Positions 1,629 to 12,869 of a stretch of 64,000 nucleotides of DNA are shown here, piece by piece. Position 1 is the stretch's first letter. Every line of letters starts with the position of its first letter. A program made the translations under genes and the position numbers. Below the pieces are notes generated by a model. The model ran no database searches, was not told the origin of the DNA, and worked only from the letters and a program-made list of their open reading frames with translations. Where the stretch lies: NCBI RefSeq assembly GCF_023169945.1, contig NZ_AP025591.1:5390481-5454480 (forward strand), read 5' to 3'. This stretch comes from Anaeromyxobacter oryzae (GTDB lineage Bacteria > Myxococcota > Myxococcia > Myxococcales > Anaeromyxobacteraceae).

Positions 1629-2867
1629 ATGGCCGGTTCAGCGACGGAGACGGTGAGACGGCGTGAAGGCACGGAGACGGGAAGTCATGCCGTCGCGGGG
1701 GTTGCCAAGCCAGGCTTCGAGGCCGTGCGGGAAGCGTTCATCGAGAACTTCGAACGCCGCGGCGAGCTGGGAGCGGCCTGCTGCGTCTACTACCGCGGGG
1801 AGAAGGTCGTCGACCTCTGGGGCGGCATCCGGAACAAGGCGACCGGCGAGCCGTGGGAGGCGGACACGATGGCCCTGGTCCACTCCACGACCAAAGGCAT
1901 GGCCGGCCTGGCGATGGCGCTCGCCCATTCGCGGGGATTGCTCGACTACGACGAGCGGGTGAGCACCTACTGGCCGGAGTTCGCGCAGCAGGGCAAGGAA
2001 AGGATCACGGTCCGTCAGCTGCTGTCGCACCAGGCCGGATTGTTCGCCCTGGATGAGCGACCGGTCAGGAGCCTCGTCGCCGATCCCGACCGGCTGGCTG
2101 CCGTCTTGGCCCGGCAGAAGCCGGTCTGGCCGCCAGGCACGCGCCAGGCCTATCACGCGATCACCCTCGGATTCTACGAGAGCGAGCTGCTGCGCCGGGT
2201 CGATCCCGAGCACCGGACCCTGGGCCGGTTCTTCCAGGAGGAGCTCGCGACTCCCCTGGGGCTCGAGTTCTACATCCGGCTGCCGGAGGAGATCCCGGAC
2301 TCCAGGCTGGCGCCGCTTCACCGGTTCGACATGGCGGCCGCGATCTTCGCGCTGCCCGTTCCGTTGGCGCTCGCGGCGATGAACCCGCGGTCACGCTTTC
2401 GCCGGGCGCTGCTGGGATCGGAGCTGCCGGAGCAGAGCGAGCGCGTCTATGCCCGGAACCTGGAGGTGCCTGCCGGGGGAGGCGTCGGGACGGCGCGCGC
2501 CATGGCTCGCGCCTACAGCGTGTTCGCGACCGGCGGAAGGGAGCTTGGATTGCGCGAGGAGACGCTCCGGCAGCTCATGGCGCCCGCGGTCCCGCCGGCT
2601 CGGGGGTTCCGCGATGCGTGCCTGAAGGTGGAGATCCAGTTCTCGCTGGGTTTCGCGAAGCCCGGCCCGACGGATCCCTTCGCTCATCCGAGCTCTTTTG
2701 GACACCCGGGAACGGGGGGGTCATTCGGTCTTGCGGATCCGCATGCCGAGGTCGGCTATGCGTACATCCCCAACCAGATGGGCGCCCACCTGGAGGACCC
2801 GCGAGAGGCGGCGCTGCGCAGGGCGATGTACCGCTCGATCGGCGAGACGAACCCTTATCGTCCGTGA
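1629..2867 (+). CDS. serine hydrolase, class C beta-lactamase / EstB-type esterase family
   Basis: A 412-residue protein of the beta-lactamase-related (PF00144) family. The nucleophile motif STTK is at residues 86-89, with Ser86 the predicted acylated residue and Lys89 the base. A Gly-rich GHPGTGG segment near the C-terminus replaces the KTG box. Members are carboxylesterases, D-aminopeptidases or lactonases more often than true beta-lactamases. No signal peptide is visible, which argues for a cytoplasmic esterase. The ATG at 1629 is chosen because GAGGA lies just upstream; an upstream in-frame ATG at 1572 lacks such a site. It converges on the HPr-kinase-like gene and the two coding ends overlap by 13 bases. 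Confidence 0.9.
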   Translation: MAGSATETVRRREGTETGSHAVAGVAKPGFEAVREAFIENFERRGELGAACCVYYRGEKVVDLWGGIRNKATGEPWEADTMALVHSTTKGMAGLAMALAHSRGLLDYDERVSTYWPEFAQQGKERITVRQLLSHQAGLFALDERPVRSLVADPDRLAAVLARQKPVWPPGTRQAYHAITLGFYESELLRRVDPEHRTLGRFFQEELATPLGLEFYIRLPEEIPDSRLAPLHRFDMAAAIFALPVPLALAAMNPRSRFRRALLGSELPEQSERVYARNLEVPAGGGVGTARAMARAYSVFATGGRELGLREETLRQLMAPAVPPARGFRDACLKVEIQFSLGFAKPGPTDPFAHPSSFGHPGTGGSFGLADPHAEVGYAYIPNQMGAHLEDPREAALRRAMYRSIGETNPYRP

Positions 2868-3817
2868 GCACATCGCCGGGCTCGACCTGCGGCCGCGAGC
2901 AGCCGACGCGCACACGCCGCAGGCGCGCTCAGCACGTCTCCGCCCAGTCGCACGCGCACGGTGCGCGCGCCGTCCGCGACCGCCCGCAGCACCGCGAGGT
3001 GCTCCGCCACCTCGGGCATCCCGTCCGCGACCAGCAGCGCGCCGGACTCGAGGAGCGCGCCGAACGCCTCGGCACTCCCCGCCGGCTCCACCTGCGTCTC
3101 GTCGTCGGCGGTGATCTCCGGGAGGAGCAGCAGGTCCGGTGACCGCATCGCGCCGGACGGATGTGCACCGAGCGCCGCGCGCGCGTCGAGCGGTCGCTTC
3201 CCCTCGCGGCCGGGCGCGCCCAGGTGAGGCGCGAGCGCCGGGAACGCCGCCGCCGTGCGCGCGCCGACGTGGAACGGGCGCGGGAAGCCGACCACGCGCA
3301 GGGGCCCGCCGCGGCGCGTGAGCAGCACCGCGTCGTCGCCGAGGGGCGTGAGACCCGCCGCGGCGAGCGCGAGGGCGAGCGTCGTCTTGCCGGCCCCGGA
3401 GGTCCCCACCACGAGCACCCGCGGCCCGTCGCCCCCCTCGAGGGCGGCCGCGTGCAGGTGGAAGAGCCCGTGGTGCCGGAGCGCGACCACGACCGCCACG
3501 AGGACCGCGAGCTCCGAGACGCCATCGGTGGTCGGGCCGGCGACCTCGATGCGCCGACCGTCGGCGGCGACGGTGAGGACGCTGGCGCCGTCCCGCACCC
3601 GGAACGAGCCGTGGCGAACCGAGCAGCGGAGCGTCTCGTGGAAGAAGCTCGGCACTGCCCCCGGGTCCTGCGGCGGGAGCGGATCCGGCGCCACGGCGAG
3701 CACCAGCGCGGGTGGGCCCGGGCTTGCCGGCGGGAACCCGCCCAGCAGCGCGCCGGCCGCGAGCGCCGCGTCGACCTCGACCTTCACGCCGCCGACGTCG
3801 AACGCCGGCGGGCTCAT
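2855..3817 (-). CDS. HPr kinase-related P-loop kinase, last gene of RiPP-like operon
   Basis: A 320-residue protein with a P-loop GTSGAGKTT at residues 138-146, a preceding HLHAAAL stretch with His122 and a GDDAVLL motif at 160-166. These match the core of the HPr kinase/phosphorylase fold, where the P-loop binds ATP and the downstream Asp pair helps catalysis. It lacks the N-terminal domain of true HprK. Its ATG overlaps the stop of the nucleotidyltransferase gene (ATGA), so translation is coupled. Related kinases in paeninodin-type lasso clusters phosphorylate the C-terminal Ser of the precursor. By analogy the substrate here may be the 63-residue peptide at 7574-7765, whose penultimate residue is Ser. 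That is an inference. Confidence 0.87.
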   Translation of the reverse strand: MSPPAFDVGGVKVEVDAALAAGALLGGFPPASPGPPALVLAVAPDPLPPQDPGAVPSFFHETLRCSVRHGSFRVRDGASVLTVAADGRRIEVAGPTTDGVSELAVLVAVVVALRHHGLFHLHAAALEGGDGPRVLVVGTSGAGKTTLALALAAAGLTPLGDDAVLLTRRGGPLRVVGFPRPFHVGARTAAAFPALAPHLGAPGREGKRPLDARAALGAHPSGAMRSPDLLLLPEITADDETQVEPAGSAEAFGALLESGALLVADGMPEVAEHLAVLRAVADGARTVRVRLGGDVLSAPAACARRLLAAAGRARRCAHGR

Positions 3818-4866
3818 CGGCCGACCACCAGCCGCAGCGCGGCGCGGAGCGGGCGCCACGCCCACAGGACGGGGAGCCAGGGGGACCGCTCCGCGACCCG
3901 GTACCGCGCGGCGAGGTACGGGCGCGCCGGGAAGAACAGCCGGAGGAGCTCGCCGCCGCGGCGCGCCTCGGCCATCGCGGCGGCGACGGACCGGGCTCGC
4001 GCGGAAACGGAGGCGGCGCGGCCCGGCATCGGGGCGTGGCCGGCGCGGGCGGCTGCGACGAGCGCGAGCGACTCCGCCACCTCCGGCCCGGGGTGGAGTC
4101 GCTCCGCCCGGCCCGGGTCCGCGCCAGCCGCGATCAGCACCGCGACGTCCGCCACGTGGCGCGGCACGAACCGGGGCTCCGCGCGGTGCGCGCCGAGCAC
4201 ATGCGTGCAGGCGATGCCGAGCAGATCGTCCAGCGAGGGGACGCGCAGCGCGGACCCGCGCCAGCGGACCTCGACCGAACGCGCGAGCACGTCCTCGGCG
4301 TCGGCGCGACGCCCGCGCACTCCGGGCACGGCGACGTGGAGCTCGCACGAGATCCCGCCTTGGGTCCGAAGCGGCGCGAGGTGGTGGTGCCCGGGCCGCG
4401 GAGCGGCAGGGCGCCCGTCCAGCGCCGGCAGCGCGTACGGATCGCTGGCGCAGCCGGCCGCCTGCAGCACCTCGGCGGCGCGCGCGGCGTCGGCGGGGGG
4501 GACGAGGAGGTCGAGATCGCCCACGTGGCGCGCGCCGATGGCGGGGTAGTGCGCGGCGACGAGCGCCGTACCCTTGAGCGCGACCGATGGGATCCTCGCC
4601 TCCTCGAGCGCGCGCTGGAGCCGGACCGCCTCCGCCACGAGGAGGGTGTTCTTCGCCGCCGCGTTCTCGGCGTCGCCGCGCAGGGCGGCCCCCGCCGCGC
4701 CGAGGCGACCCAGCGCGTCCGCCGCGAGCAGCGCGTGGGCGCAGGTCTCCGAGACCGCGAACGACCGCGCCAGCTCGAGGACCCGGAGCGGGGCGACGTC
4801 GGCCGCGCGCGCGGCGAGCCCCGCGAGCGCCGGGCGCGGCCCGGCGACCGCGAGCAGGCACTCCAC
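3814..4866 (-). CDS. nucleotidyltransferase family protein (PF14907-like)
   Basis: About 350 residues if the GTG at 4866 is the start. An ALKGT segment (Lys98, Gly99) is followed by GARHVGDLDLLV at 111-122, in which Arg113 and the GDLDL aspartates Asp117 and Asp119 form the metal-binding signature of this uncharacterised nucleotidyltransferase family. Such genes recur beside PqqD-like proteins and HprK-related kinases and in several lasso clusters, where they are tailoring enzymes of unknown chemistry. The gene begins about 35 bases after the protease-PqqD gene and overlaps the kinase start by 4 bases. The open frame extends far upstream against the operon's other frames, so the exact start is uncertain. 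Confidence 0.83.
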   Translation of the reverse strand: MECLLAVAGPRPALAGLAARAADVAPLRVLELARSFAVSETCAHALLAADALGRLGAAGAALRGDAENAAAKNTLLVAEAVRLQRALEEARIPSVALKGTALVAAHYPAIGARHVGDLDLLVPPADAARAAEVLQAAGCASDPYALPALDGRPAAPRPGHHHLAPLRTQGGISCELHVAVPGVRGRRADAEDVLARSVEVRWRGSALRVPSLDDLLGIACTHVLGAHRAEPRFVPRHVADVAVLIAAGADPGRAERLHPGPEVAESLALVAAARAGHAPMPGRAASVSARARSVAAAMAEARRGGELLRLFFPARPYLAARYRVAERSPWLPVLWAWRPLRAALRLVVGR

Positions 4867-4901
4867 GACGAGCGCCCGGTCTGTCCGCGCGCGCCCCAGG
4901 C

Positions 4902-5636
4902 TCAGCCCTCGCCCGCGAGCAGCCGCTCGGCGCGCAGTGCCTCGAGGAGCGCGCCGACGTCCGCCCGTGCTCGCGCCTCCGCGACTCCGTCGAACCGCCG
5001 GACGATCTCGCGCGCGAGCGCGTCCGGCTCGCGCACGCCCTGCTCGAGCTGCTTCCAGACCACGACGCCGGTCCGGTTGAGCGCGTAGTAGAACTTCGTC
5101 CCGAGGTGCAGCAGCACGCCGGTGCCATCCTGCAGCTCGGTCAGGATCACGTCGGGGTGGGACGTCGGCTCGGCCATGCGGCGCTCCTCGAGGCTGCCCG
5201 TCGGCGGGCGCGGGAAGACGAATGCGACGGTGAAGCATGCACGCGGATCCTCTGCCTCGCCGAGCGGCACGCCGTCCTGCTCGAGCCAGGCGTGCGCGAC
5301 GAGGTCGCCGCCCGCGGCCCGCACCCCGATGACGAACCGCACCGGCGCGCCGGCGTCCCGGAGCGCGGCCCACCCGGTGAGCGCACGCCAGAGGCAGCTC
5401 ACCGGCCACCTTCGGAGCAGGTCGAGGACGCGGCGGGGGAGGGCGGGATCTCCTGCAGGTCCACCTCCGGCTGCGCTGCCGTCGAGCGCCTCGAGCAGGT
5501 TGGGGAGGTGCCGCCGGCGGAGGAGGGCGCCGAGCACCACGCGGAGCGCCGCGGCCCTCGCGCGGATCTGCCAGGACGGCCCGGGCCCGGTCGAGGCCAG
5601 GCCCAGCGTGGCCGCCCGCGCGAGCGCCCCGAGCAT
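4902..5636 (-). CDS. lasso B2-type transglutaminase-like protease fused to PqqD-like RRE domain
   Basis: One uninterrupted 244-residue frame carries two RiPP domains. Residues about 70-135 match the lasso-peptide B2 leader protease: Cys81 in a VSCLWRALT segment, His115 in VAHAWLEQDG and Asp121 form the expected Cys-His-Asp triad. Residues about 160-240 are a PqqD-like domain (TKFYYALNRTGVVVWKQL), the fold that binds leader peptides. In fused lasso B proteins the recognition domain usually comes first; here the order is reversed. ATG codon 154 at 5177 is preceded by GAGGAG, so a free 91-residue PqqD protein could also be made. The start at 5636 overlaps the radical SAM stop (TGATG). Confidence 0.88.
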   Translation of the reverse strand: MLGALARAATLGLASTGPGPSWQIRARAAALRVVLGALLRRRHLPNLLEALDGSAAGGGPAGDPALPRRVLDLLRRWPVSCLWRALTGWAALRDAGAPVRFVIGVRAAGGDLVAHAWLEQDGVPLGEAEDPRACFTVAFVFPRPPTGSLEERRMAEPTSHPDVILTELQDGTGVLLHLGTKFYYALNRTGVVVWKQLEQGVREPDALAREIVRRFDGVAEARARADVGALLEALRAERLLAGEG

Positions 5637-6649
5637 CACCGCCGCCCCCCGCCCGCGCCTTGCGCGCGCGGGCCGGCGCTCCCGCCGTCCACCCAGTGCG
5701 GCCGGCCATGGACGCGCGCGCACCAGTTGCACTGGAGGGCGTCCCACCCCCTCGCGCCCGCTGCGCAGGTATCGAGCCGCTCGCGTTCCAGGCGGTGGAC
5801 GCGCTCGAGCAGGAGCCGGTGCGCCTCGCGCAGCGGCGTGGAGGCGAGGTCCGCGACGACGTCCTCGTCGCCGCCCGGCGCGCCGGCGAGCTGACAGCAC
5901 AGGGTCAGCCGGCCGTGCGGATCGACGTGCAGGACCTCCGATCGCCACGGCGCGCAGACGTGGAACGGCTGCGGGCGCTGGAATCCCTCGGGCGCCCGGA
6001 CCGGGATCGCGAGGACCTCGGCGAGCCGCTCGACGCGATCCCGCACCGCCGCCCAGCCCTCCCGGGACTGCCAGAGCTCCACGTCGGCCGGCGTCCCCGT
6101 GGGCATCGCGAGATTGAACGAGACGCTCGCCGCGCCCAGGGTGGCCGCCTCCAGCGCGAGCGCCTCCACCTCGGCGGCGTTCCCGGCGTGCACCGTCATC
6201 TGGACGTTGAACCGGACCTCCCGCGCCCGCAGCGCCAGCGCGGCGGCGAGGACGGCCCGGTGGCTGCCGTCGCCGCGGATCCGGTCGTGCACCGCGGCCG
6301 TCGCGCCGTCGAGCGAGAGATCGACGGCGGTGAGCGCGGCGCGGCGGCGGGGATCGCCCTCGAGCAGCGCGAGGAGGCGGTCCAGCTCGCGGCCGCTCGT
6401 GACGAGGTGCCACCCGAGTCCGCGCCGGACGGCAGCGTCCACGACGGCGGCGAGGTCGGGGTGCAGGAGCGGCTCGCCCCCCGTGAAGCTGGCGTGCTCC
6501 ACCCGGTGGAGCGCGACCGCCTCGTCGAGCACGCGCTCGACCAGCGCGGCGGGCAGGTCCGCCGGGGGACGCCCTGGGTCGCGCAGGCAGTGCAGGCACT
6601 GCAGCGAGCACCGCTCGGTGACGTGGAAGGCGACCCAGGCGGTGGGCAT
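5636..6649 (-). CDS. radical SAM protein with SPASM-like C-terminus
   Basis: A 337-residue protein with the radical SAM cluster motif CSLQCLHC (Cys14, Cys18, Cys21), a SAM-binding FTGGEPLLHP segment and an LSLDGA strand typical of peptide-modifying members. A C-terminal set of cysteines (HVCAPWRSE, LTLCCQL, CNWC) fits an auxiliary [4Fe-4S] SPASM or twitch domain. The family does thioether, C-C, epimerisation and related chemistry on peptides; which applies here cannot be read from sequence. It starts 6 bases after the beta-propeller gene stop and overlaps the next gene by one base. The obvious candidate substrate is the small peptide encoded one gene upstream. Confidence 0.92.
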   Translation of the reverse strand: MPTAWVAFHVTERCSLQCLHCLRDPGRPPADLPAALVERVLDEAVALHRVEHASFTGGEPLLHPDLAAVVDAAVRRGLGWHLVTSGRELDRLLALLEGDPRRRAALTAVDLSLDGATAAVHDRIRGDGSHRAVLAAALALRAREVRFNVQMTVHAGNAAEVEALALEAATLGAASVSFNLAMPTGTPADVELWQSREGWAAVRDRVERLAEVLAIPVRAPEGFQRPQPFHVCAPWRSEVLHVDPHGRLTLCCQLAGAPGGDEDVVADLASTPLREAHRLLLERVHRLERERLDTCAAGARGWDALQCNWCARVHGRPHWVDGGSAGPRAQGAGGGRR

Positions 6650-6655
6650 CGCGTC

Positions 6656-7570
6656 CTACGGCGACAGCGCGAAGGCGGGCGCGCCGTCCGACGCGCCGTC
6701 GGCGGTGAGGAGGGCCGCGCCCGAGCCGTCGAGCGAGGCGAGGACGATGTCGGCGTGGCCGTCGCGGAAGGACCGGAGGGCCAGGTGCGCGCCGTCGGGC
6801 GACACCGCGGGCTCGGAGTCGTCGAGGCTGGACACGGGCACGGCCTCGCCGGTGGCGAGGTCGAACCGGACCACCTCGGTGAGCGTGGAGCCCGAGATCG
6901 TGCGGGCGAACAGGAGGGCCGCGCCGTCCGCGGTCACGGCCGGCTTGCCCACGATGCGGGAGGCGGTCGTGACCTGGGTCGCGTCGCCGCCCGTCGCCGC
7001 GACCTTCCAGACCTCGTAGGACCCGCTCCGCGTGGACACGAAGTAGATCGTGCGCCCGTCGGGCGCCCAGGTCGGCCCGCCGTCGTCCGCGCCGTGCGGC
7101 GCGAGGGCCAGCGGCGTGCCGCCGCCGGCCGGGACGACGAAGACGTCGGAGGTGGTCGCTCCGGCGGCGCGGCCCTCGAACGCGAGCGATGCGCCATCCG
7201 GCGAGAACGCCGGCGCCGTCGCGGAGGCGAGATCGCCGGTGGCGATGGGCGCGTCGGTGCCGGTAAGGAGGTCGTGGGCACGCAGGTGGAGCTTGCCGCC
7301 GCGCTCGCTCGCGAAGGCCAGCGTCGAGCCGGCCCAGGTCGGGAAGAGGTCCGCCGCCGGATCGTGCGTCACCTGGGCGAGGCAGGTGCCGTCGATGCGC
7401 ATCCGCCAGACCTCGTAGTCGCCGGTCCGCCGCGAGACGAAGGCGAGCCAGGGAGCGCCGTCGGTGCTCACCGCGCAGGGGTCCGGCGGCGGGTCACGCG
7501 GCGGCACCGCGGCGGGGCCACCGCAGGCGGAGGATGCCACCACGGCGAGCGCGAGGGCGGCGCGGCGCAC
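6656..7570 (-). CDS. TolB/PD40-type beta-propeller lipoprotein
   Basis: A 304-residue protein starting at GTG 7570, three bases after the stop of the precursor-like peptide gene. The N-terminus (MRRAALALAVVASSACGG) is a lipoprotein signal with Cys16 in the lipobox. The rest consists of repeats of the PD40 kind, for example YEVWRMRIDG..QVTHDPAADLFPTWA and FSPDGASLAFEG, which build a TolB-like beta-propeller in the periplasm or on the outer membrane. Such a protein would bind another protein or a peptide rather than act as an enzyme. Its place between peptide and modifying enzymes suggests a role in handling or displaying the product; this is inference. Confidence 0.88.
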   Translation of the reverse strand: MRRAALALAVVASSACGGPAAVPPRDPPPDPCAVSTDGAPWLAFVSRRTGDYEVWRMRIDGTCLAQVTHDPAADLFPTWAGSTLAFASERGGKLHLRAHDLLTGTDAPIATGDLASATAPAFSPDGASLAFEGRAAGATTSDVFVVPAGGGTPLALAPHGADDGGPTWAPDGRTIYFVSTRSGSYEVWKVAATGGDATQVTTASRIVGKPAVTADGAALLFARTISGSTLTEVVRFDLATGEAVPVSSLDDSEPAVSPDGAHLALRSFRDGHADIVLASLDGSGAALLTADGASDGAPAFALSP

Positions 7571-7573
7571 GGG

Positions 7574-7765
7574 CTAGCCGCTCCCGACCAGCCCGCCCCT
7601 GGGGTCCGGGCCGGCGCCGCTGCCGCTGAACAGGGTGGCGCGCGAGACGGAGCGCTTCTTCACGATGCGCGGGGGCTCGTACGCGGGGCGCGTGGGCTGC
7701 GCCGGGGAATCGAGGCCGGAGGCGGTCTCCGGCGTGTCGTTCGGCTGAGGCTCGATCGTCTTCAT
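7574..7765 (-). CDS. 63-residue lasso-type leader peptide, putative RiPP precursor
   Basis: A 63-residue protein without signal peptide or membrane segment. The N-terminal 28 residues are Pro/Thr/Glu-rich. A YxxPxI element (Tyr29, Pro32, Ile34) followed ten residues later by Thr44 matches the leader motif read by lasso-type PqqD/B1 domains. The C-terminal part, FSGSGAGPDPRGGLVGSG, is small-residue rich. If Thr44 is position -2, the core would be these 18 residues, with Asp54 as core residue 9 and Ser62 next to last. The gene begins 14 bases after the giant lipoprotein stop and ends 3 bases before the beta-propeller start, so it lies inside the operon. No lasso cyclase is encoded nearby, so the final structure is unknown. 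Confidence 0.78.
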   Translation of the reverse strand: MKTIEPQPNDTPETASGLDSPAQPTRPAYEPPRIVKKRSVSRATLFSGSGAGPDPRGGLVGSG

Positions 7766-7779
7766 GTCGGCTCCGCGGA

Positions 7780-10700
7780 CTAGAAGGCCGTCCGGACGTT
7801 CACCCGGTTCACCACCGGGTCGGGTCCCTGCTGGATCCACGCGCCCACCCAGTCCGTCCCGTCGTGCAGGACGGAGAGCCCGGCTTCGACGGGAGCGACG
7901 GACGGGGACGTGCCGCTCGAGAGGACCAGCGGCGGGTACGCCGTGCCGGCGGCCACGTCGATCTGTTTCAGGCTCGTGCTCGCGCCGTCGGCGACGCGCG
8001 CCAGCACCTTGTAGCGGGCGCCGTCGCTCGCGACGGCGAGGTCGGTCGCGACCAGGCCAGGCTGGATGGGCGAGCCCCACGCCCCCGCTGCGTACGACGC
8101 GAGCTGCACGCCGGAGCAGTCGAAGGCGGCGAGCCACCCGGTCGCCGACGGGGCGATCCTCGTGAGGCCGCAGTTTCCGGTCGAGGCGAGGACCGCGGGC
8201 GTGCCCCAGGTCGCGCCGGAGCGGAGCGCCGCGCGCGCCGCCGTCGCGTCGCCCCAGGCGACGGCGTAGCCGCCCGGGCCGGCGGCGAGGGCCGGGCCGG
8301 ACGAGACCGCCGCGCTGCCGGAGAACACGGTCGTGTCGGCCCCCCAGGACCACGCGCCGCTCGTGCTCGTCACGGTGGCGGAACGCGCGCGGACGTAGCG
8401 GCTGTTCGTGTTGACGTCCAGGTACCACGCCACGACGTACTCGCCCGGGCGAGCGGCGATCGCGGGCCGCTTCGCGGTCGTGGAGGTGCTGACGGTCACG
8501 CTGGCGCTCCAGCCCGCGGTGCCCTTGATCGCGGCGTTGATCAGCGCACCGCCGTACTCCCAGGTGGAGGCGTAGGTGCTGCCGTCCGACGCGACCGCAT
8601 GGCGCGATGCGTTCGTCTGCAGGGTCACCGGTGCGCCCCAGGTGTCGCCGGCGTACTCGACGGCGGTGAGGTTGGACGCCGAGAACGTCGGCATGTCCCG
8701 GAACACGACCAGGAACCCCGTCCCATCGGACGCGACCTCGGGGTCGCGGGCGTGCCGGGCCAGCCGCAACGGCGGCCCCCAGGCGCCGCCGCGGCGGAGC
8801 GCGGCGAAGACGGCGAGCATGCCCCCGTCGTCCTGGTGCCACGCGGCGAGCACGTCACCGTTGCCGTTGCGGGCGAGCCGCACCGCGGCGCCCGCGCTCC
8901 CCGGGACCGGCGGGTCCGACAGCAGCACCTCGGTGCCGAGGGTGGTGCCGTCGTACGTCTTCGCCTCGACTCGCGGTGCCGAACCGTCGTCGCGATCCCA
9001 GGCGAGGAGGGCGGGGCCACCGGCCCGCCCCGAGATGGTCACGTCCTTGACGTCCTCGGCCCAGCTCTCCGCCTGGACCTCGTTCATCCACGCGAACCCG
9101 CTCGCGGCCACGTCCTTGTTGACGGAGACGTGGGCAGGCGGGGAGCCGAGCGTCGCATTGATGCGCAGCGACGCAACGAACCCGTCGCCTGCAGGGGCGA
9201 CCGCCGAGGACACGACGTAGCCTGGGAGCGTCCCGGTGAGCTCGCGGCCTCCGGTCCAGTAGCTCGGTGTTCCTGGCTGGTACGTGGCACCGTACTTGTT
9301 CCACACCACGGCGAACCGGTTGCCGTTCGCCGCCGCCGAGATCGCGGACGCGGGCTCGCCCACCCCGGTGCTCAGGTTGGTCGCCGTGCCGAAGGTGCCC
9401 GTGCCGAGATCGGTCGACACCATCACCGCGCCCGTCGTCGTCCCCCACCCGACGCACGCGCGCGTGCCGCTCGCCGCGACGGCGGGAGCGAGCATCGTGG
9501 ACGTGCCCGAGGCGCCCGGAAGGAGCGTGGGGCTCCACGTGTGCGACACCGCGTTGTAGCGGCTCGTGTACACGGCCGTGCCGCTCGCCCGGTAGGCGGC
9601 GACGTAGGACGTGGTCCCGAGCGGCGCGACCGACGGGTAATCGGCCCTGCTCGCCCCGCTGTCTACGCTCCCCGTGACGAAATCCCAGGAGGTGCCGTTG
9701 TAGACGGCGCCGTAGACGTGATTGGTGGCGTAGTCGCTCCCCGCGATGGCGAAGCCGGTTCCGTTTCCCGCCAGGTCGAACGCCGGCCCGCTCGACTCGT
9801 AGCGGAGCTGCCAGTGCTTCGTGACGGTGCCCGGCGTCCCGTTCGTGAAGATCGCCGACTCGAGCGCGGAGTCCTTCTGGTTCTGCCAGGCCACGAGGAA
9901 CTTCGACCCGCTCGCCACGACCTTCGCGTTCACCGGGAGCTCCGGGGGCGCGATGCTCCGGTAGCTGTAGATCGCCTGTGCGGGCGTCCAAGTTCCGGTG
10001 GCGGCGGCGTAGTAGGACCACAGCAGCTTCGCGCCGGCGTACGTGTTCGCGCTGTAGATCGCGAGCCGGTTCCCGCTCGCGTCCTGCGCGACGCCGCGGT
10101 TGACGTAGTTCGCCGAGCCAGCGCCGCTCACCACGACCGGCGAGGTGACGGTCACGAACCACGAGGCGTGCGGGGCGGCGAGGGCGTGCCCGACCGGATC
10201 GCGCGCGGCGGTCGAGACCGCGACCGTGTAGCGCGTCGCGACGTCGAGCGGCGCCGCCGGCGTGAAGGCCCAGGTGCTGCCGGAGTCGAGCGCCACGGTC
10301 CCCGAGACTCGCCCGCCGGGCCCGGTCAGGGTGACCGCCTCCGCGACGGTGGCCGGGTCCATGGGCTCGCTGAACGTGACGCGCACCACGGCCCCGGCGG
10401 TGACGTCGCCCTGCGCGTCGCGCGGGCTCACCGCCACCACCGTCGGCGCGACGGTGTCGATCGCGTACGTCTGCGCCTGCGGAGCCTCGGCGTTTCCCGC
10501 GGCGTCCACCGAGAAGAAGCGGATCGTCGCCGACGAGGTGACGGCGATGGGCCCGGCGTACACGGGCGACGTCGTGGTCGGCTCGCTGCCGTCGAGCGTG
10601 TAGTACGTCGCCGCGCAGCCGCTGCCGGCGTCGGCGCAGGCCAGCGTGACGACCTGCGGGGCATCGAACGCCTTGCCGAGCGGCGTGGCCGACGTCGTGG

Positions 10701-11313
10701 GCGGCGTCGCGTCGACCACCTCGGCGACGACGCGCCCGGTGAACGTGAACCGCGTCGCGTCGGGCAACCGGAAGCGCCAGGTCGCCACCGCGCTCGCGCC
10801 CGTGCCGGCCAGCGTCCCGTAGGCGAAGAGCCCGTACTGGTCCGAGACCCCGTCGACCGCCGGCGCGCTGTTGCAGGCCTCACGACCGGTCGGCGTGATC
10901 GAGACGATCTCCACGTAGGCGTTTCGCAGCTCGTACCCTGCGTAGAACGAGCGCAGCCGGATGTCGCCCTCGAACCCGTCGACGGCGCCGCAGCCTCCGG
11001 CGACGGTGGCGGCGCGCTCCGTCACGAGCTCGACCGTGTTCGCCGGCCCCTGCCCGGGGACGCCGTCCTGCACGACCGGGACGTCGACGAACGCGGCGGC
11101 GACGTAGGGCCCGCTCACGGATGCCGAGGTGGACCGCTCGTCCGAGCCGAGCGCGAGCGTGCCGGCCACCGCGTCGACCTCGCCCGAGATCGTCGCGACC
11201 ACGCGCGACCGCGGCGACGGCTGCTGGGTGGGCGCGCCGGATCGCGTGCACGCAGTGAGAAGGGCGGCGCCCACGAGCGCACGCCGAGCGACGTCGAGCC
11301 AGTCCGGTCCCAT
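7780..11313 (-). CDS. large surface lipoprotein, CHB_HEX/Big_5 domains plus propeller-like repeats
   Basis: A 1177-residue protein starting at ATG 11313 behind a G-rich ribosome binding site. The signal ends in the lipobox LLTAC (Cys near residue 20). A chitobiase C-terminal-like domain (YYTLDGSEPTTTSPVYAGPI) and an Ig-like SbsA/Big_5 domain (VSPRDAQGDVTAGAVVRVTF, FSEPMDPATV) follow in the first third. The remaining 750 residues are about 45-residue repeats of the form W..P..L......A..P.VA..G...V.W, as in secreted beta-propellers. It is the first gene of the RiPP-like operon and probably sits on the outer membrane. No catalytic motif was found. It may be the partner or carrier of the modified peptide. 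Confidence 0.88.
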   Translation of the reverse strand: MGPDWLDVARRALVGAALLTACTRSGAPTQQPSPRSRVVATISGEVDAVAGTLALGSDERSTSASVSGPYVAAAFVDVPVVQDGVPGQGPANTVELVTERAATVAGGCGAVDGFEGDIRLRSFYAGYELRNAYVEIVSITPTGREACNSAPAVDGVSDQYGLFAYGTLAGTGASAVATWRFRLPDATRFTFTGRVVAEVVDATPPTTSATPLGKAFDAPQVVTLACADAGSGCAATYYTLDGSEPTTTSPVYAGPIAVTSSATIRFFSVDAAGNAEAPQAQTYAIDTVAPTVVAVSPRDAQGDVTAGAVVRVTFSEPMDPATVAEAVTLTGPGGRVSGTVALDSGSTWAFTPAAPLDVATRYTVAVSTAARDPVGHALAAPHASWFVTVTSPVVVSGAGSANYVNRGVAQDASGNRLAIYSANTYAGAKLLWSYYAAATGTWTPAQAIYSYRSIAPPELPVNAKVVASGSKFLVAWQNQKDSALESAIFTNGTPGTVTKHWQLRYESSGPAFDLAGNGTGFAIAGSDYATNHVYGAVYNGTSWDFVTGSVDSGASRADYPSVAPLGTTSYVAAYRASGTAVYTSRYNAVSHTWSPTLLPGASGTSTMLAPAVAASGTRACVGWGTTTGAVMVSTDLGTGTFGTATNLSTGVGEPASAISAAANGNRFAVVWNKYGATYQPGTPSYWTGGRELTGTLPGYVVSSAVAPAGDGFVASLRINATLGSPPAHVSVNKDVAASGFAWMNEVQAESWAEDVKDVTISGRAGGPALLAWDRDDGSAPRVEAKTYDGTTLGTEVLLSDPPVPGSAGAAVRLARNGNGDVLAAWHQDDGGMLAVFAALRRGGAWGPPLRLARHARDPEVASDGTGFLVVFRDMPTFSASNLTAVEYAGDTWGAPVTLQTNASRHAVASDGSTYASTWEYGGALINAAIKGTAGWSASVTVSTSTTAKRPAIAARPGEYVVAWYLDVNTNSRYVRARSATVTSTSGAWSWGADTTVFSGSAAVSSGPALAAGPGGYAVAWGDATAARAALRSGATWGTPAVLASTGNCGLTRIAPSATGWLAAFDCSGVQLASYAAGAWGSPIQPGLVATDLAVASDGARYKVLARVADGASTSLKQIDVAAGTAYPPLVLSSGTSPSVAPVEAGLSVLHDGTDWVGAWIQQGPDPVVNRVNVRTAF

Positions 11314-12686: not shown

Positions 12687-12869
12687 CTACGTGTACGTCC
12701 ACTGGATCTGGGTGAACGAGAATTGACAGCTCTCCGTCGGGCGGGAATCGGCACCGGCTGCAGAAGGACCGGCCTTGGCGCCACCACCCCCGGAGGCGGC
12801 GCTCAGCTCCTCATCGTCCAGCCGTCGGGGGGCAGGCACCGTCTTCGGGTTCTCGCGCTTGGTCTTCAT
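12687..12869 (-). CDS. 60-residue double-glycine-leader peptide
   Basis: A small peptide with an excellent ribosome binding site (AGGAGGTCGCC before ATG 12869). Residues 17-30 read LDDEELSAASGGGG, the acidic amphipathic leader and Gly-Gly site typical of peptides cut and exported by C39-peptidase ABC transporters. The predicted released part is about 30 residues and ends in a hydrophobic aromatic strand, CQFSFTQIQWTYT, with a single Cys. The tail is reminiscent of the last strand of Hcp-type tube proteins, which may be chance. No matching peptidase or modification gene is adjacent. It could be a bacteriocin-like or signalling peptide; the function is unknown. Confidence 0.62.
   Translation of the reverse strand: MKTKRENPKTVPAPRRLDDEELSAASGGGGAKAGPSAAGADSRPTESCQFSFTQIQWTYT

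Follow-up and report, generated by a model that had tools for sequence, protein, structure and literature searches.

The window, i.e. the whole stretch of 64,000 nucleotides analyzed here (Anaeromyxobacter oryzae, contig NZ_AP025591.1, positions 5,390,481 to 5,454,480; genome G000 in the comparisons), contains seven abutting genes on the minus strand between positions 2855 and 11313. Order and strand are those given by an earlier sequence-only reading, and the kinase, protease and radical SAM motifs are intact; domain searches agree gene by gene, with the limits given below. The intergenic gaps are 14, 3 and 6 bp in gene order, the remaining reading frames overlap or abut, and, judged from this spacing, the genes from 11313 to 2855 are one compact transcription unit. 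The features are:

7780..11313, minus strand: lipoprotein G1, 1177 aa, with signal sequence and lipobox (LLTAC), N-domain, CHB_HEX_C_1, Big_5 and blade-like repeats
10669..11250, minus strand: conserved N-domain of G1, outside Pfam, with two conserved cysteines, common to the peptide-linked lipoproteins
7574..7765, minus strand: precursor peptide, 63 aa, with YEPPRI (predicted to bind the RRE), Thr16 and Ser19 (numbering begins at the Tyr), and predicted core FSGSGAGPDPRGGLVGSG
6656..7570, minus strand: PD40/TolB-like beta-propeller lipoprotein, 304 aa, with lipobox and GTG start
5636..6649, minus strand: radical SAM enzyme, 337 aa, with C14xxxC18xxC21 and C232, C251, C252, C307, C310
4902..5636, minus strand: B2-type leader peptidase fused to PqqD/RRE, Transglut_core3, Cys and HAWLE intact
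about 3814..4866, minus strand: nucleotidyltransferase NTP_transf_5 (122.6 bits), GDLDLL motif intact; the start is ambiguous (GTG 4866 or CTG 4899)
2855..3817, minus strand: HprK-related kinase, 320 aa, HLHA, GTSGAGKT and GDD intact

Gene products of the operon

Lipoprotein G1 matches the Pfam families CHB_HEX_C_1 (67 bits) and Big_5 (70 bits). Residues 388-1177 yielded no Pfam match and contain four clear blade-like repeats of approximately 45 residues each. The N-domain (about residues 22-205, approximately 175 residues) belongs to no Pfam family and found nothing significant in the PDB. Single-sequence prediction gave an all-beta fold of low confidence for the N-domain (pLDDT 50) and a pLDDT of 34 for the C-terminal part of G1; no claim made here rests on these predictions. 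The locus had been described as encoding two large propeller lipoproteins; both types recur in relatives, but the second, with 304 aa, is not large.

The B2 half of the fusion protein matches Transglut_core3, and NF033537 above its cut-off. The kinase retains the motifs H-x-HA, G-x2-GxGK[S/T] and DD and was earlier assigned as HprK-related; its match to HprK_rel_A is weak (31.6 bits, cut-off 200). Neither the kinase nor the radical SAM enzyme comes close to the curated equivalog cut-offs, so both are members only of broad superfamilies. The latter, earlier assigned as a radical SAM/SPASM protein, has the radical SAM motif and gave no Pfam match to SPASM. Five C-terminal cysteines (C232, C251, C252, C307 and C310; pattern C-x13-G-x4-C...CxxC), invariant in five copies, look like one auxiliary cluster. 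The closest solved relative is PqqE. A wide genome scan with this enzyme kept 80 loci of only 22-37% identity, mostly unrelated radical SAM proteins and none with the peptide motif.

Peptidase, RRE, kinase and nucleotidyltransferase, previously named as a tailoring set, were each found in the operon by domain searches, which detected no exporter among the seven genes, also in line with the sequence-only reading. Upstream of the operon (12687-12869, minus strand), a 60-aa frame with LDDEELSAASGGGG resembles a double-glycine leader; it had no family match above cut-off.

Peptide genes and paired lipoproteins in related genomes

A set of 195 genomes of the phylum was searched, with family and phylum as labelled in the search set. 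Strong matches of the radical SAM, peptide and N-domain profiles coincide in four of them (G000, G013, G018 and G021), all of family f1. The radical SAM profile (E <= 1e-30) hit the same four, with three copies in G021, plus one partial match in G194. The B2-PqqD fusion is present in three of the four, G013 having PqqD alone; when used as query against 117 relatives, it matched three further family-f1 genomes and, weakly and by PqqD only, one genome of another family. No convincing match to the radical SAM enzyme, peptide or N-domain was found in eight other searched genomes of the window's genus. Peptide and both propeller types recur in family-f1 relatives; the check named in the sequence-only reading, for relatives lacking the peptide or with a lasso cyclase at the locus, gave no refutation. 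All members found in the 195 genomes are from this one phylum.

Genome G021 has all seven genes together at locus L091 (propeller, peptide, G1-like lipoprotein, radical SAM, B2-PqqD, nucleotidyltransferase, kinase). All seven kinds occur in rearranged order on its contig C25 (L089/L123), with two radical SAM genes, an acyltransferase and glycosyltransferases. An MsbA-type ABC gene beside L091 was rejected as a dedicated exporter: it is a resident gene that occupies the same position in G013 with no operon there, and in G000 a 70% homologue lies far away. At the place where G021 has the full operon, G013 has a stand-alone PqqD directly following a WecA-like Glycos_transf_4 gene (L092:8717-10484).

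The window peptide has Y-E-P-P-R-I-x9-T in its leader, and the motif across copies is Y-x-P-P-x11-T-L-F-[S/T]-G. The profile yielded 15 peptide genes in the four genomes (G000 1, G013 2, G018 5, G021 7; an eighth match listed for G021 was weak, inconsistent between searches, and left out). Invariant in 15/15 are Y-x-P-P-R, K, R, R-A-T-L-F, G and G-G, with Ser or Thr after the Phe. Weak profile matches in G087, G095, G152 and others had no motif in a short frame where inspected and were taken as chance, except for a true member in G185 and a different, radical SAM-linked YxPP peptide in G024. For the stretch from the Tyr, dN was 0.07 versus a dS of 0.82 (mean of 13 copies; pairwise means among related copies, hence a rough measure), and third codon positions varied most (17 of 22, against 8 and 5 for the other two positions). 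These substitution patterns show strong purifying selection on the peptide, on which ground a chance frame was rejected. Nor is the operon a chance assembly: its gene set is found again in independent genomes, at approximately 50% protein identity, and the peptide shows the evolution of a coding gene.

For 14 of the 15 peptide genes, a gene for an N-domain lipoprotein lies on the same strand at a gap of -4 to 56 bp (lipoprotein starts set via the lipobox rule or by eye), upstream of the peptide in three pairs and downstream in eleven; the remaining peptide is situated on a 4.8-kb contig. In most pairs of L089, L091, L111, L112 and L114-L119 the gap varies little, from 47 to 56 bp. The N-domain lipoproteins (G000 1, G013 3, G018 6, G021 11), some without a peptide found nearby, show 24-33% identity to the window's N-domain. 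Their C-terminal parts belong to mutually unrelated families, often beta-propellers (Vgb_lyase, RCC1, BNR/Vps10-like, DUF1554, DUF5122). That the linkage survives such divergence and changes of order points to a shared function and not to a recent duplication of the block, and the gene arrangement suggests that peptide and predicted surface lipoprotein work as a pair. This pairing, described in no paper found in the open-licence literature, is much stronger than could be known from the window, and the surprise lies in the lipoprotein partner. That the window product is kept on the cell surface, as had been proposed, is still something we infer. Homologues of the PD40 propeller adjoin peptide or N-domain genes at L091, L089, L115, L118 and L168. 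In G135 (L165, C1 near 7892000), a protein of approximately 2000 residues carries an N-domain 40% identical to the window's; neither a peptide nor a maturation gene was found in its vicinity.

Genome G185, from another family of the phylum, encodes an N-domain protein followed at +132 bp by a 46-residue frame ending in YEPPVLGPATPIAAVTLFSGTVNPDGGTVDFGD and then by NTP_transf_5. PqqD, an HprK-like kinase and a B2 above cut-off lie on the same contig, 15-20 kb off. The peptide keeps Y-x-P-P...T-L-F-[S/T]-G...G-G; residues common to both families are only Y, P-P, T-L-F, G and G-G, plus the Ser/Thr. Neighboring genes for sugar transferases, an epimerase and glycosyltransferases (names assigned by eye from the sequences) mark a polysaccharide locus. 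The window's radical SAM enzyme had no match at E <= 0.1 in 36 kb of G185. Since the peptide, the lipoprotein, B2, PqqD, the kinase and the nucleotidyltransferase are all retained here while no radical SAM enzyme was detected in that stretch, the enzyme is, contrary to the earlier supposition, not what replaces the lasso cyclase in general and looks like an accessory.

A second cassette in the window's genome (L094:3108-10465; G000:C1:4943107-4950464) is unrelated in sequence to the window operon. It comprises an NTP_transf_5-like protein, PqqD, a 58-aa YEPPAI peptide, a 1005-aa propeller-like protein, a small lipoprotein, an HprK-like kinase and a radical SAM/SPASM protein; no B2 was found. 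Its PqqD best matches ScmD and its kinase ScmC, far below the curated cut-offs. With the same parts list present there, the peptide-plus-propeller theme may be wider; as the cassette pairs a radical SAM enzyme with kinase, nucleotidyltransferase and PqqD without B2, the modules combine freely. Short peptides with YAPPSI and YRTPQV occur near relatives of its radical SAM enzyme (L194/L182 in G024; L183 in G030).

Comparison with known systems

Leader motif YxxPx[L/I], Thr at -2, B2 and RRE are common to lasso peptides and the window set; the earlier recognition of a lasso-type leader on the 63-residue peptide is borne out. The macrolactam cyclase and ring acceptor of lasso peptides are, however, both missing. 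As previously noted, the locus has no lasso cyclase detectable by domain searches, and no NF033561/Asn_synthase-like cyclase exceeded the 300-bit cut-off in five genomes (the four of family f1 and G185); weak matches to the cyclase profile also occurred in E. coli and other controls. An Asp or Glu acceptor at core positions 7-9 is not conserved, and the L089 core contains neither residue. Bsf and paeninodin-type lasso clusters (PMC10368454; PMC13381572) resemble the window operon in B2, RRE, HprK-like kinase, Y/WxxP leader and Thr/Ile at -2, the paeninodin clusters also in the nucleotidyltransferase, but have their own cyclase and ring acceptor; fusion of the RRE to B2 is a feature of the window. 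The Bsf system of Bradymonadales has an RRE that accelerates phosphorylation and helps B2, which cuts one residue after position -2; BsfK, aided by BsfB1, modifies core Ser3 and accepts Thr there too (PMC10368454).

To call this a new RiPP class is too strong: the linear polyphosphorylated peptides (LPP) of Bacillota, reported in 2026 (PMC13381572), already provide a relative that has kinase, NTP transferase and RRE but no cyclase. LPP share with the window set the missing cyclase, the HprK-like kinase, the NTP transferase and the RRE; their leader (Y-x-x-P, Thr at 16, hydroxyl residue at 19) follows the same numbering as the window peptide, and they often lie in polysaccharide loci, as does the G185 set. 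LppK, which is HprK-like, acts on the Ser that lies three residues beyond the Thr of the leader and rejects an S3T substrate; the unphosphorylated precursor is poorly cut, and it is the RRE that brings the precursor to the peptidase (PMC13381572). Unlike the window cluster, which has a B2, LPP clusters have a SipW-like SpI peptidase, an MsbA-like exporter and a discrete RRE, and their precursors have variable C termini; the radical SAM enzyme and lipoprotein partner of the window operon are undescribed for LPP.

SynChlorMet (TIGR04248-TIGR04251), GeoRSP and HPr-rel-A systems are alike in combining PqqD, an HprK-related protein and a radical SAM/SPASM protein. The window operon differs from SynChlorMet in its B2, absent from the Scm models seen, and all its matches to ScmC, ScmD, ScmE and ScmF were far below curated cut-offs. 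We know of no N-domain lipoprotein in any of these three systems. PqqE/PqqD and mycofactocin MftC have the radical SAM fold and partner RRE of the window operon; they form a small cofactor from one peptide, whereas the window system has many paralogous peptides with lipoprotein partners. Because of these many paralogues a cofactor pathway was rejected.

Proposed pathway and alternatives

We favor, with moderate confidence, a RiPP pathway closest to LPP, the product being a short linear peptide, probably phosphorylated; one family would add a radical SAM step, and a surface lipoprotein would be the partner. Chemistry, step order, export and the role of the partner are inferred as follows. The PqqD/RRE half of the B2 fusion would bind the leader at Y-x-P-P-x-[I/L]. 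Aided by the RRE, the HprK-like kinase would, by analogy, phosphorylate Ser/Thr19 of T-L-F-[S/T]-G, just past the cleavage site. In family f1 the radical SAM enzyme may then change the core further, and the NTP_transf_5 protein may transfer a nucleotide or a sugar onto the phosphate or the peptide. Cleavage by B2 after T-L would release a core of 13-20 residues starting at Phe, and the exported product would meet an N-domain lipoprotein with a variable, often propeller-like C-terminal part. A hydroxyl residue occupies position 19 in 15/15 copies and in G185, which fits the LPP numbering. Against phosphorylation, it is Thr in most copies, whereas LppK rejects S3T (PMC13381572), and the Bsf phosphosite would map to position 20, here an invariant Gly. 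Against the pathway as a whole, the operon has no exporter, and all members found in the present search are from one phylum.

A different reading, first put forward from the sequence alone and possible but rather unlikely, takes the radical SAM reaction (e.g., a crosslink or epimerization in F-[S/T]-G-S-G-P-D) as the defining modification, with kinase and nucleotidyltransferase as tailoring enzymes and leader and peptidase borrowed from lasso pathways. It would suit the presence of the enzyme in 4/4 family-f1 genomes with the peptide, its three copies in G021, its kinship to PqqE and its invariant auxiliary-type cysteines, but in G185 the core motif and the other genes persist although no radical SAM enzyme was detected in 36 kb, and L094 pairs such an enzyme with kinase, nucleotidyltransferase and PqqD without B2. 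The actual product might instead be the lipoprotein, with the peptide in a helper role: once modified, it would be joined to, or would cap, the N-domain of lipoproteins with surface-displayed propellers. Nearly every peptide has such a partner over many loci, the N-domain is conserved on unrelated C-terminal domains and the core in all peptides; yet no chemistry of this kind is known, the peptide has no signal sequence, and the N-domains in G135 and G021:C238 have no peptide found nearby, so that we regard this as improbable. Leader, B2 and RRE of lasso type could also be remnants of a genuine lasso pathway, now in decay after the loss of its cyclase. This is very improbable: motifs and frames are intact, purifying selection is strong, the peptide has multiplied to 5-7 copies in two genomes, a conserved ring acceptor is lacking, and none of the five genomes has a cyclase above cut-off.

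A function in surface display or recognition is a tentative and rather doubtful suggestion: shared enzymes would mature near-identical cores, each for its own N-domain lipoprotein, with the modified peptide as tag, cap or ligand on propeller proteins that are interchangeable. With the favored pathway, the cyclase-less, kinase-bearing relatives of lasso peptides would reach beyond Bacillota into a Gram-negative lineage, where the peptidase differs and a radical SAM step is added. The biological role of paeninodins and LPP is unknown (PMC13381572); the specific protein partner at nearly every copy offers a testable lead on such a role, namely binding or attachment to a surface lipoprotein.
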